From: Candidatus Saccharibacteria bacterium RIFCSPHIGHO2_12_FULL_44_22
Lineage (GTDB): Bacteria > Patescibacteriota > Saccharimonadia > Saccharimonadales > Saccharimonadaceae
Direction of reading: 5' to 3'
NCBI GenBank assembly: GCA_001790515.1
Contig: MGCS01000002.1
Location: forward strand, 1,784 to 48,233
DNA length: 46,450 bases
In this document: piece after piece, positions 26,212 to 32,666 of the stretch
Layout: each line of letters begins with the position of its first letter
How positions within the stretch are numbered: position 1 is the first letter of the stretch
The notes under the pieces: model-generated
Told to the model about the DNA's origin: nothing
Seen by the model: only the letters and a program-made list of their open reading frames with translations
The model's database searches: none
Position numbers and translations under genes: made by a program

Positions 26212-26238
26212 ACCCACACATTAACATACTTATCCACT
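26210..26238 (+). promoter_or_regulatory. Paired 9-mers (DnaA-box-like), second copy
   Basis: TTACCCACA (26210-26218) and TTATCCACT (26230-26238) start 20 nt apart, about two helical turns as in the first copy, and lie just before the NrdR-like gene. Candidate operator or DnaA site pair. Confidence 0.5.
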
Positions 26239-26272
26239 AGCATTTTATATAGCTGTATGACAATATATAGTC

Positions 26273-26716
26273 ATGATATGTATTAATTCACCGAACGAAC
26301 CGACAAAAGTAATTAATTCGCGGTCAAGCAAAACCGCTCCTATCGTTTGGAGGCGTCGACAAGGTCTTAAAAGTGGAGTTGTCTTCACAACCTACGAACG
26401 TCCGGCGCTGGCTGAAAATAAGAAAATTCAACTAATCGATGGATCTACCTCGACCTTCAATCTAGGGAAACTACTGCTTAGTATCGCTCGTTCTTTCAGC
26501 CACAGTCCGAATGCGGCTCAATACGATAGCCTGTGGCTAGCCCAGACAGTCGAAGATGCATTATCAATGAATGACCAAAAACTTACCCCATCTATAATCA
26601 CTGAAAAAACATATCAAACTCTAAAGCGTTTTGACGAATTAGCAGCAATCCAATACGCAGCCAAACACCACCTTATAACAACCGTTAGAAAACGCGGACG
26701 CCCTTCTTTCAATTGA
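26273..26716 (+). CDS. NrdR-like regulator with degenerate zinc ribbon
   Basis: A 147-residue protein that aligns along its length with NrdR, the ATP/dATP-sensing repressor of ribonucleotide reductase genes. The N-terminal part keeps the NrdR spacing and signature (VINSR, WRRRQ, FTTYERP), but of the four zinc-binding cysteines only C3 remains; the others are S6, G31 and S34. The ATP-cone follows (IQLIDGSTSTFNLGKLLLSI to about residue 135) and looks intact, ending RFDELAAIQYAAKHHLI. The start is set by the NrdR N-terminus and has no good ribosome binding site. Without zinc it may bind DNA differently, work through a partner, or have lost DNA binding. The paired motif just upstream suggests autoregulation. 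nrd genes are not in the window. Confidence 0.8.
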   Translation: MICINSPNEPTKVINSRSSKTAPIVWRRRQGLKSGVVFTTYERPALAENKKIQLIDGSTSTFNLGKLLLSIARSFSHSPNAAQYDSLWLAQTVEDALSMNDQKLTPSIITEKTYQTLKRFDELAAIQYAAKHHLITTVRKRGRPSFN

Positions 26717-29193: not shown

Positions 29194-31077
29194 ATGACAA
29201 AACCAAAACAATTCTTATCGCTTATATTCACCTTTATGTTGGTGTTTTCTTTGGTGTCTACTCATCAGGTTTCAGCAGCCACTTCAAGCATTTCGCTCTC
29301 TCCCAGCTCACAACAGCTTACTAAAGGTGCTAGCTTTAGTATCCAAGTTAGAGCTAGCTCCGATTATATCGGATTCGTAACCTCTACCACGTCAGGCACA
29401 CTTAATTTCCCCGCTACACTCCTAAGGGCAACAGCTACATCGGTTAGCGGCAGCGCATATCCAAATATGACCGCAACTGTCAACAATACAAATGGTACAA
29501 TAACATTTAATGGCTCAAAAGCACCGTCTCCATCTGGCGAATTTCTACTGTTTACTATTACGTTTTTGACACTTAACGGCGGATCCGCAAAACCCTCCTT
29601 CTCATCAAACACAGTCGTGAACTATAGCAACTACAATCAAGTGGCGCCCACTAAGTCAGGAGGCACTTATACTATTACCGTTCCAACTTGCCCTGCAGGG
29701 CAAGTTGGAACGCCCCCTAACTGCACCACTCCGACCCCGACTCCTACGCCCACTCCAACGCCGACCCCGACTCCTACGCCCACTCCAACGCCGACACAGC
29801 CTCAGTCGAGCACTCCACAAGCGAGCGAGTCTACCTCAATACCCGAAGACATAACACCACCAATTATAGAGACAGATGATACAACGCCTACTCAAATAGA
29901 TGCAGGAGACCTGTCAATTAAGGATGTCTCCGCGACGACAACTCGCAATGAGAACTCACTCACATGGAAGACATCCTTACCGAATGTAGTGTCGGAACTG
30001 TTCTATGGAACATCGCGTGCTAAAAAAGACACCTTTAGCACAGTAACGAAGAAAGATGACACGACTTCGGCAACTAATTTTGAAAATTTATCACCGGGAA
30101 CTCGCTATTATTACACAATAACATCCTACGAGGCCGCAACACCGGATAAAAAAGCAAGCTACGAAGGCGCCTTTACCACTCGTGGATATCCGGTAATTGT
30201 TTACATTACAAGTAATAAAAAAGAAAGTGCAAATGCCCAGCTTGCAGTTGACGGCCAAACCTATAAAGCCAATAACAATGGCATGGTGAAATTAGAGTTG
30301 TCGGATAAAACATACGATGCAACTATCACACTATTAGATGCAACAATTAAAAAAGTGTCGATTCCGGTCATGAAAAAAACTATTCCTACAAACAATACCG
30401 AGCCAGAGAGTCAAGTTTTTCGCTTTGATGTCGCCAGTGCCCAAACAGGCTCGTCCACCACCAATCTTAGTTCATTGATCGGGCCACTAGTTATCGGTGC
30501 TGTCGCTGTTGCTTTAATAGGTGGAGGTGGCATATTTTTTCTTATATATCGAAGGAGAAAACTAGAACAAACGGTCAGTCCCTTGCCTGTCAGTACAGAC
30601 TACTTGTGGCAAACAAAACCGAGTGTTCATGATTCCTATACCGAAACACCTGCTAGCCAATTTGAGCAACCTATACCAGCGAAAATGAACCCTGACGAAC
30701 AAGAGTATACTGCAGTTACATCAGTTGAACAAAAACCTGTATCAGACGAAACAGGTCAAGAATATAACGATGATTTAAATACAACTGATGGAATAAAAGG
30801 TGTTAATAATACTACAAATATATCAGAACCAGAGATGCCTGATATGTGGGACGCCCCTCAGCAGCAGATTGAAGTTAATACAGTCACTCCTCAAATTTTA
30901 CAGACGCCTAACGCCTTACCTCAATTAACAGAAAACAATACAACTTCGACCACCCTGTCAGCGGAGAGTGTGCCTAATGGGAATTACCAATATGATTCTG
31001 ATCAGGCAGAGATTAGCATCGCGCATCCTCTTAAAACACAGTCAACAGAAGATGGAATTGAGGGCAAGCTCGCATGA
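29194..31077 (+). CDS. Stalked surface protein: cohesin-like head, Pro-Thr linker, FN3, TM
   Basis: A 627-residue secreted protein anchored in the membrane. Signal peptide 1-28 (cleavage near VSA-AT). Cohesin-like beta sandwich about 30-165 (ISLSPSSQQLTKGASFSIQV; LNFPATLLRA; GTITFNGSKAP). Then CPAGQVGTPPNC and a (Pro-Thr)n stalk, an FN3-like domain about 245-330, a carboxypeptidase-regulatory-like domain about 330-390, a membrane helix about 430-452 and an acidic cytoplasmic tail of about 170 residues. Cohesin domains bind proteins or carbohydrates, so an adhesion or host-contact role is plausible but inferred. The long cytoplasmic tail is unusual for an adhesin and hints at signalling or anchoring. 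Its stop overlaps the next start (ATGA). Start ATG lies 41 nt after a weak TACAAT box. Confidence 0.85.
   Translation: MTKPKQFLSLIFTFMLVFSLVSTHQVSAATSSISLSPSSQQLTKGASFSIQVRASSDYIGFVTSTTSGTLNFPATLLRATATSVSGSAYPNMTATVNNTNGTITFNGSKAPSPSGEFLLFTITFLTLNGGSAKPSFSSNTVVNYSNYNQVAPTKSGGTYTITVPTCPAGQVGTPPNCTTPTPTPTPTPTPTPTPTPTPTPTQPQSSTPQASESTSIPEDITPPIIETDDTTPTQIDAGDLSIKDVSATTTRNENSLTWKTSLPNVVSELFYGTSRAKKDTFSTVTKKDDTTSATNFENLSPGTRYYYTITSYEAATPDKKASYEGAFTTRGYPVIVYITSNKKESANAQLAVDGQTYKANNNGMVKLELSDKTYDATITLLDATIKKVSIPVMKKTIPTNNTEPESQVFRFDVASAQTGSSTTNLSSLIGPLVIGAVAVALIGGGGIFFLIYRRRKLEQTVSPLPVSTDYLWQTKPSVHDSYTETPASQFEQPIPAKMNPDEQEYTAVTSVEQKPVSDETGQEYNDDLNTTDGIKGVNNTTNISEPEMPDMWDAPQQQIEVNTVTPQILQTPNALPQLTENNTTSTTLSAESVPNGNYQYDSDQAEISIAHPLKTQSTEDGIEGKLA
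29679..29712. repeat. 34-bp perfect palindrome inside a coding sequence
   Basis: The left arm CGTTCCAACTTGCCCTG (29679-29695) is followed at once by its exact reverse complement, centred on CTGCAG. It encodes VPTCPAGQVGT at the border between head domain and stalk, and has no loop. Confidence 0.92.
29731..29790 (+). repeat. Pro-Thr stalk minisatellite, two identical 30-bp units
   Basis: Two exact 30-bp units starting CCGACCCCGACTCCTACGCC, followed by a partial unit. The same unit, differing at one base, recurs in the neighbouring paralog at 31561-31650. Confidence 0.92.
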
Positions 31078-32666
31078 AGTTCTTCTCGCTCATAAATAAA
31101 CACCTCACTTCATTGCTATGCGTGTTTGTGTTAGTATGCTCGCTTATCACAATTCATACTACTTATGCCGCAGGCAATACCCTCTACATAACGCCAAACT
31201 CCTCACAGGTCACAACTGGAGGAACATTCAGCGTAAATGTACGAGGCTACGTCGAGGCAGCGTCCGGCAGCACAGGTAACGTATCAGGCGCGCTCACATA
31301 TCCTCAAAATCTTTTAACAGTACTTGATACATCGACAAACGGAAGCAATTATAATAATCCGACTATATCTCGGAATGCAGGCGCAATTGGTTTTAGCGGC
31401 ACACAGAACCCAGGGCCAACAGGTCAAGTTCAAATATTCTCTGTAACTTTTAGAGCAACCGCAGCCGGGACGGCAACACTTGGCTTTGGAAGCAACAGCA
31501 CAATCAATCAGTCAGCCACTAATCGAAACACTGCCACATACACTATTACTAGTCCGACTCCTACGCCCACTCCAACACCGACCCCGACTCCTACGCCCAC
31601 TCCAACACCGACCCCGACTCCTACGCCCACTCCAACACCGACCCCGACTCCTACGCCCACCGAACCTACCGAACCAACTACAGAGGATAGCGTAACAACG
31701 GTTGACCCAACTGGCCTCGTAAACTCCGTAACCATCGAACCATCCTATACTACAGCGATAATCACCTGGAAGCTAAAGGCGACTGGCGGATCTGCAGAGC
31801 TGTTATATGGTACATCGAGTGACGAAATAACGACAAAAACAGAAACTAAAAAGGGAGAAGATGGCGTCTACACGAGTACACTCAAAGATCTACTACCCGG
31901 GGCACGATACTATTTTGTCGTCAACGGAACCGGAGATGATGGAAAAACAAGCTCATATAGCGCAGTAATAGTAACCCGTGGATACCCTGTTAGACTGATC
32001 GTCACCGAAGGTGGAGTCCCGTCGTCAAGTGCAAAGATAAAGATCGGACAACAAAGTTATGCAACAAGTAAGGATGGTACTGTTAACCTCTCACTCGGTG
32101 AAGGAAAATATACAGGAACCGTCACAACAACAAGTTCATCACAATCAGTTACTTTTGAGGTAAAAAAGAAAGAGATCCCTGCCAATGGTGATGCTCCTGA
32201 ACTGCAAACATATCCGTTTGAATTACCGGCTGCAGCCGCACTCGTACCAGGAACGTCATTCTCTTGGCTGGGATTCATCGGTGTTCTAGCTGGTGGTGTC
32301 GCTATTGTGGTCATAGGACTCCTCGTGTTTTTTGCGATCAGAAGGCGTCAATATGAATCAATTAATAGTTTTGGAAATAGCCAGACAGTCGTTATTGAAG
32401 ATGGCTACAACTGGAGAGAGCACATAGCCGAACCGTCGATGCCTTCGGCAGACACAAACACGCAAACAGACAATCCCCCGACATACTTCCCGCCGGCTCC
32501 ACCCGTACCCCCAATGCCCCTAAGTAGTCAACCCTACACATCGACGACGCCTCACTCATCTATGTATCTTGATGATGAAGAACCTAAGGATATGTTCGAA
32601 ATAGCAAAAGAGCGGGAAACTAACCCCACTCCCAGTGATTCCTCGCAATCTCCGTACCCTCGCTAG
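31074..32666 (+). CDS. Second stalked cohesin-like surface protein (paralog)
   Basis: A 530-residue paralog of the preceding gene with the same order: signal peptide 1-32 (TYA-AG), cohesin-like head about 33-160 (LYITPNSSQVTTGGTFSVNV; GALTYPQNLL; AGAIGFSG), a longer (Pro-Thr)n stalk about 162-200, an FN3-like domain about 215-300, a regulatory-like beta domain, a membrane helix about 400-423 and a Pro-rich cytoplasmic tail. The heads differ clearly while the stalk DNA is almost identical, as expected after tandem duplication with stalk repeats exchanging. The start overlaps the previous stop as ATGA, so both are made together. The last 4 nt overlap the convergent sod gene, without a visible terminator. 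Confidence 0.85.
   Translation: MKFFSLINKHLTSLLCVFVLVCSLITIHTTYAAGNTLYITPNSSQVTTGGTFSVNVRGYVEAASGSTGNVSGALTYPQNLLTVLDTSTNGSNYNNPTISRNAGAIGFSGTQNPGPTGQVQIFSVTFRATAAGTATLGFGSNSTINQSATNRNTATYTITSPTPTPTPTPTPTPTPTPTPTPTPTPTPTPTPTPTPTEPTEPTTEDSVTTVDPTGLVNSVTIEPSYTTAIITWKLKATGGSAELLYGTSSDEITTKTETKKGEDGVYTSTLKDLLPGARYYFVVNGTGDDGKTSSYSAVIVTRGYPVRLIVTEGGVPSSSAKIKIGQQSYATSKDGTVNLSLGEGKYTGTVTTTSSSQSVTFEVKKKEIPANGDAPELQTYPFELPAAAALVPGTSFSWLGFIGVLAGGVAIVVIGLLVFFAIRRRQYESINSFGNSQTVVIEDGYNWREHIAEPSMPSADTNTQTDNPPTYFPPAPPVPPMPLSSQPYTSTTPHSSMYLDDEEPKDMFEIAKERETNPTPSDSSQSPYPR
31561..31650 (+). repeat. Pro-Thr stalk minisatellite, three identical 30-bp units
   Basis: Three exact 30-bp units starting CTACGCCCACTCCAACACCG, flanked by partial units from 31554 to about 31660. 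Copy number can change in frame by slippage, adding or removing ten residues per unit. Confidence 0.93.

Follow-up and report, generated by a model that had tools for sequence, protein, structure and literature searches.

Can an NrdR homolog that has lost its zinc ligands still act on DNA? Descriptions of NrdR present it as a universal zinc-ribbon repressor of reductases in bacteria and also as a target for antibiotics, and the window analyzed here, a stretch of 46,450 nucleotides from Candidatus Saccharibacteria bacterium RIFCSPHIGHO2_12_FULL_44_22, encodes a homolog (paralog A; Table 1) that lacks three of the four zinc cysteines. The original prediction reasoned that such a protein could no longer bind DNA, and saw in it a nucleotide sensor with a new output or the partner of a normal NrdR encoded elsewhere. 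The reading that we favor, with a probability of about 0.62, is that A is the zinc-independent form of a second NrdR-derived putative DNA-binding protein, in a genome whose true NrdR (paralog B) would likewise repress reductase genes without zinc.

Table 1. Location of the two NrdR paralogs and of the DNA sites associated with them (window coordinates unless a contig or locus is given; G000 is the window genome).
Feature	Position	Strand	Remarks
Conserved element TTATCCACTAGC	26230..26241	+	Precedes the A operator by ~30 bp (centre to centre), or ~three helical turns
Rest of the conserved A promoter TATATAGCTGTATGACAATATATA	26246..26269	+	Possible extended -10 element; conserved, putative promoter role
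Palindromic NrdR-like putative operator ATGACAATATATAGTCAT	26257..26274	.	Overlaps the A start codon; conserved across A orthologs
Paralog A, NrdR-like, 147 aa	26273..26716	+	Zinc-less ribbon domain, residues 1-43; eroded ATP-cone, ~50-131
Paralog B, true NrdR	G000:C11:152855-153292 (L001 1450-1893)		Directly after ftsZ
Two NrdR box pairs upstream of nrdA	L002 1930-2090 (nrdA promoter near G000:C2:150,566)		Centres 32 bp apart in each pair; genome without zinc-type NrdR

The window protein and its missing zinc ligands

The A gene is an open reading frame without an internal stop. Residues 1-42 align over the full length of the NrdR ribbon domain (Pfam Zn_ribbon_NrdR, PF22811; 31.9 bits, cut-off 27.2), and a search of the PDB with an A profile returned NrdR as the sole type of match (E 1e-16). 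Profile comparison shows A to be an NrdR homolog over both the ribbon and the ATP-cone, as had been predicted, and rules out an unrelated ATP-cone protein. A phage or defence origin was also considered and rejected, as PADLOC returned nothing and PHROGs a single weak match of unknown function. A nevertheless scores 40.9 bits with TIGR00244, below the curated equivalog cut-off of 124.65.

Residue positions are given in E. coli NrdR numbering, and those of the inner nucleotide site also in S. coelicolor (Sco) numbering. The published zinc ligands of NrdR are C3, C6, C31 and C34 (PMC12176259). In the alignment, A has C3 together with S6, G31 and S34, so the three predicted losses stand, and they are common to three sister genera, whose proteins begin MLCINS, MISLNY and MISINS. 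The one cysteine said to remain is indeed there in the window, but it is not a conserved remnant, being Cys in two of these four zinc-less proteins and Ser in the other two. No plausible replacement ligand is found at positions 6, 31 and 34 of the zinc-less A proteins.

In S. coelicolor NrdR, D15 and R17 provide specificity while R12, R26-R29 and R37 contact the phosphate backbone, and R17 and the Arg cluster have been shown to be important for DNA binding (PMC9110341). Within the contact set D15, R17, R26-R29 and R37, A keeps R17 and R27-R29 and has N15, W26 and V37 instead of the others; F38-T-T-Y-E42 is also kept. Without R37 and R26, and with N15 for D15, A may hold DNA less tightly or in a different manner.

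The ATP-cone, which had been taken to be intact, is not: PF03477 gives 13.1 bits against a cut-off of 25.8, and the inner-site Lys, Arg and Glu (Sco K50, R51 and E56) are replaced. K50, R51, E56 and K62 bind the nucleotide in S. coelicolor NrdR, and mutating the equivalent residues V48, K50, E56 or K62 impairs nucleotide binding (PMC9110341). Most of the 50 aligned family A proteins have other residues in place of the inner-site Lys and Glu, and 48 have His at position 131, a Tyr in NrdR; the outer-site Lys (E. coli 65) is often retained. Because of the lost inner-site Lys, Arg and Glu and the Tyr-to-His change, A is probably blind to the ATP/dATP ratio.

The two-domain NrdR fold is present in the predicted model of A. 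The models of A and B (pLDDT 82.6 and 83.0, the first ten residues being low-confidence in both) each show a three-strand ribbon and an ATP-cone, and their best PDB matches are NrdR; these models show the fold and say nothing on the stability of the metal-free domain. Against 7p37, the A model gives Z 12.6 and an rmsd of 10.7 over 138 residues, and the B model Z 15.7 and 8.4 over 142 residues, the high rmsd in both cases being due to flexible domain orientation.

The ftsZ-linked NrdR and its boxes

The suggestion of a partnership with a normal NrdR fails for this genome. The assembly (1.23 Mb, 16 contigs, 99% complete) contains only two matches to PF22811, A and B, and both are zinc-less; no NrdR with four cysteines was found with this profile. 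The second nrdR that the original prediction proposed to look for does exist, beside ftsZ, but its product, which reads MTKQYKIGDSRVIESREGSDGVSIRRRRESPDGRRFTTYER, has none of the four zinc cysteines. By profile score B is a true NrdR, passing TIGR00244 (130.4 against 124.65) and the ATP-cone profile PF03477 (66.5 against 25.8). Two other ATP-cones are found in the window genome, in NrdA and in a stand-alone protein of 102 aa (L003 1468-1776; G000:C4:18013-18246) whose gene adjoins a flavoprotein disulfide reductase-like gene.

The loss in B is widespread. Within the family, 58 of the 73 B proteins read, from 33 genera, are zinc-less. An alignment of 99 B proteins divides into these 58, all from the window's family and without any zinc cysteine, and 41 that have all four, 15 of which come from a further 14 genera of this family and the rest from other families; no genus is mixed. 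No cysteine whatsoever is left in 54 of the 58, and all 58 keep E15, S16, R17, R26-R29, R37, E42, K53, K65, F127 and V130. The same zinc-less B sequence occurs in 34 named Saccharibacteria-type assemblies from separate studies. Cysteine loss was absent from the other NrdRs inspected at those 80 loci and from the readable ribbons of low-scoring matches in the rest of the phylum. In a tree built without the zinc columns, 47 of 48 zinc-less B proteins form one supported clade. The exception (G033, L118) sits on a long branch outside it, and therefore one or two zinc losses in B are possible.

Of the NrdR box pattern ACRCWATATATWGYGT, the 1.23-Mb window genome contains a single exact site, which lies upstream of nrdA and has a partner 32 bp away (centre to centre) and a second 32-bp pair nearer the gene. 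This distance corresponds to a 16-bp spacer and matches known NrdR box pairs, for which spacers of 15-16 bp are published (PMC12051234). No box site with 0-1 mismatch appeared in 3000 simulated upstream regions. In 13 genomes with a zinc-less B and no A (the B protein was read in each and is zinc-less in all), 31 boxes with at most one mismatch were counted, compared with 3 for a reversed control. Box pairs lie directly upstream of the anaerobic reductase gene nrdD in two of the 13 (L320 and L321; G195 and G060); a search for class I NrdA found none in several genomes, among them the two with boxed nrdD. As boxes are kept in genomes that have only a zinc-less B, the zinc-less NrdR is the sole candidate reader of conserved NrdR boxes. 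This conservation is strong, though indirect, support for metal-free DNA binding by zinc-less NrdR, and we consider it quite likely, judging from sequence, that B is a zinc-free repressor of reductase genes in the manner of NrdR.

The lineage and operator of paralog A

Comparison across genomes indicates that A is a separate, older NrdR-derived paralog and not the family's true NrdR. A clear ortholog is present in 53 of 198 family genomes, the window genome included, and A also occurs in other families of the class and in one family of another class of the phylum (f69). Among the 50 aligned family members, 46 have four cysteines and four are zinc-less (the window, G312, G111 and G310); the A protein of L099, with CxxxxC spacing, has its cysteines and does not belong to the zinc-less set. 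The four form one supported clade nested among four-Cys orthologs (SH-aLRT 98) and all sit in genomes with a zinc-less B, from which it follows that the loss of zinc in B preceded that in A. R17, W26, R27, R28 and E42 are found in 50/50 of the aligned proteins and N15 in 49/50, compared with R37 in 2/50. By these residues the whole A lineage, four-Cys members included, is altered in specificity and at the nucleotide site. A changed output, as originally proposed, is therefore possible, for a reason other than the loss of zinc. Members from the class and f69 have a more normal ATP-cone (VIKKSGRKERY), so the erosion of nucleotide sensing took place inside the family, independently of the zinc loss and ahead of it. 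The f69 proteins (L312, L313, L314) are A-type by N15 and W26, have four cysteines and an ATP-cone that looks intact, and come with a palindromic operator of similar form. An in-frame TAA lies within the matched region of one A gene (L097, G360) and one B gene (L135, G309); contig ends are near, and these may be assembly faults.

The DNA in front of A is conserved as well. The putative operator has the core of the NrdR box, CWATATATWG, with flanks TGAC/GTCA rather than ACAC/GTGT. Its exact palindrome has a single match in the window genome, at A, and no site within one mismatch of it occurs in five A-less genomes having B. The palindrome also stands in front of A in other families of the class and, slightly varied, in f69, and it is unchanged in kind in the zinc-less A genes, being common to zinc-bearing and zinc-less members. 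Conservation reaches 1.3-1.7 bits per base over the ~45 bp that precede A, compared with ~0.1-0.35 farther upstream; the consensus is TTWTCCACTAGCnTTTTnnATAGCnnTATGnCAATATATAGA followed by ATG, and both operator and promoter are conserved in all four zinc-less A genes. We suspect that A starts leaderless. The strongest argument for zinc-less A still acting on DNA is that the operator persists, and the simplest reading of a site at its own start codon would be self-repression; B could read it instead.

Inspection by eye of the DNA three turns upstream of the operator revealed no second NrdR-type box, and a DnaA-box-like element, written TTWTCCACTAGC across A promoters (L036-L064), lies there instead. 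The first 8 bases of TTATCCACTAGC match TTWTNCACA, which we take to be the DnaA box. Further TTTCCCAC/TTATCCCC-like motifs are seen upstream of A in many genomes. A replication origin in the window, which such motifs might suggest, was rejected since the cumulative GC skew declines steadily without a turning point. With respect to a regulon beyond A itself, no second operator site recurs across genomes; one genome has a second exact copy away from A (G055:C1:382080-382097).

Several other explanations must be weighed against DNA binding by A. It could be a decaying remnant that no longer binds DNA, heading for loss after B took over, as in many genera. Its absence from many genera, its vanished nucleotide-site residues and the sub-threshold ATP-cone would agree with this. 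We nevertheless judge decay unlikely, given that all four zinc-less orthologs are open, the sister proteins are 62-71% identical to the window protein, N15, R17, W26-R-R-R and FTTYER are kept, and the operator, promoter and gene neighbourhood are conserved. Amino-acid change among them is also well below silent change, though silent sites are saturated and dN/dS is poorly estimable.

We assign just as low a likelihood to an A that works by protein contact, as a nucleotide-blind subunit which poisons or locks the B tetramer while B reads A's operator. The shared box core and the interface residues R27, R29 and E42, kept in both paralogs, fit this idea. Against it, the palindrome (≤1 mismatch) is absent from the five genomes that have B and no A, the flanks at A (TGAC/GTCA) differ from the ACAC/GTGT type of B boxes, and A retains R17 and R27-R29. 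A nucleotide sensor with a new output, the original proposal, is very improbable: its ATP-cone fold is predicted and the outer-site Lys often persists, but the inner-site Lys, Arg and Glu and Tyr131 are changed in most family A proteins, and mutation of the equivalent residues V48, K50, E56 or K62 impairs nucleotide binding (PMC9110341). Finally, a sequencing or assembly error, for which we found no support, can be dismissed, since the losses in A are common to three separate sister genomes and those in B to 58 proteins and to the 34 assemblies of separate studies.

A probable metal-free circuit and its relation to known systems

With zinc cysteines gone from both NrdR copies and the target DNA sites kept, the data suggest that the circuit runs without zinc. 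The three-stranded ribbon sheet would fold without metal. B, loaded with ATP and dATP, would sit as a tetramer on the nrdA box pair and repress nrdA, while binding of A to the operator overlapping its start codon would make A its own repressor. Any action of A beyond itself would most likely come through mixed dimers or tetramers with B that tune reductase repression. This is the least certain step: A-B mixed oligomers are a guess from the shared interface residues, and the partnership is possible. That a clade of Saccharibacteria runs reductase control with a metal-free NrdR, and that part of it also made the self-regulated paralog A metal-free, seems to us fairly likely. For A taken singly, we lean, somewhat less firmly, towards a paralog that represses itself, is probably nucleotide-blind and, like B, binds DNA in zinc-free form.

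The notion that A has lost DNA binding finds no support in its conserved operator, predicted fold and mostly conserved DNA-facing residues, and it is further countered by the clade's true NrdR, which lost zinc and kept its boxes and every DNA contact tested. On the other hand, zinc is reported to enhance DNA binding by E. coli NrdR (PMC4898720), and A has one clear operator where known NrdRs require two boxes (PMC12051234).

The reference family is NrdR itself (TIGR00244), with solved structures from S. coelicolor (7P37/7P3F) and E. coli (9FXK/9FVR). A shares with it the N-terminal ribbon followed by an ATP-cone, the predicted fold, R17 with the Arg cluster and a palindrome with the CWATATATWG core; it differs in its incomplete zinc-ligand set, N15, W26, the missing R37, the lost inner ATP-site residues, its failure with TIGR00244 and a single operator with other flanks. 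B has the same two-domain layout as A and is also cysteine-less, but unlike A it retains every DNA and nucleotide contact tested and scores above the TIGR00244 cut-off, and it probably reads the nrdA boxes.

A zinc-binding fold that is kept after cysteine loss has precedents in the zinc-free paralogs DksA2 and the alternative ribosomal proteins (PMC9213440, PMC5912738). Those are extra copies for zinc starvation, whereas the window genome has only zinc-less NrdRs and no four-Cys copy. A search of the openly accessible journal literature found no NrdR paper mentioning Saccharibacteria or Patescibacteria. A zinc-less lineage with intact DNA contacts and boxes is a natural test of whether zinc serves DNA recognition or the fold only, and its NrdRs are ready metal-free proteins for testing the zinc requirement.

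The class-wide distribution of A, with its own operator, also shows a change of NrdR specificity (N15/W26, paired with flanks TGAC/GTCA) open to testing one residue at a time. The four-Cys orthologs from the class and f69 resemble window A in N15/W26 and in an operator at the start codon, and the neighbourhood is the same in the family genomes compared; they differ in retaining CxxC...CxxC and, at the class level and in f69, a more normal ATP-cone. Near A, at 29194-32666 of the window, two exported proteins encoded in tandem carry long Thr-Pro repeats, and similar exported proteins are found near A in G111 and G310.
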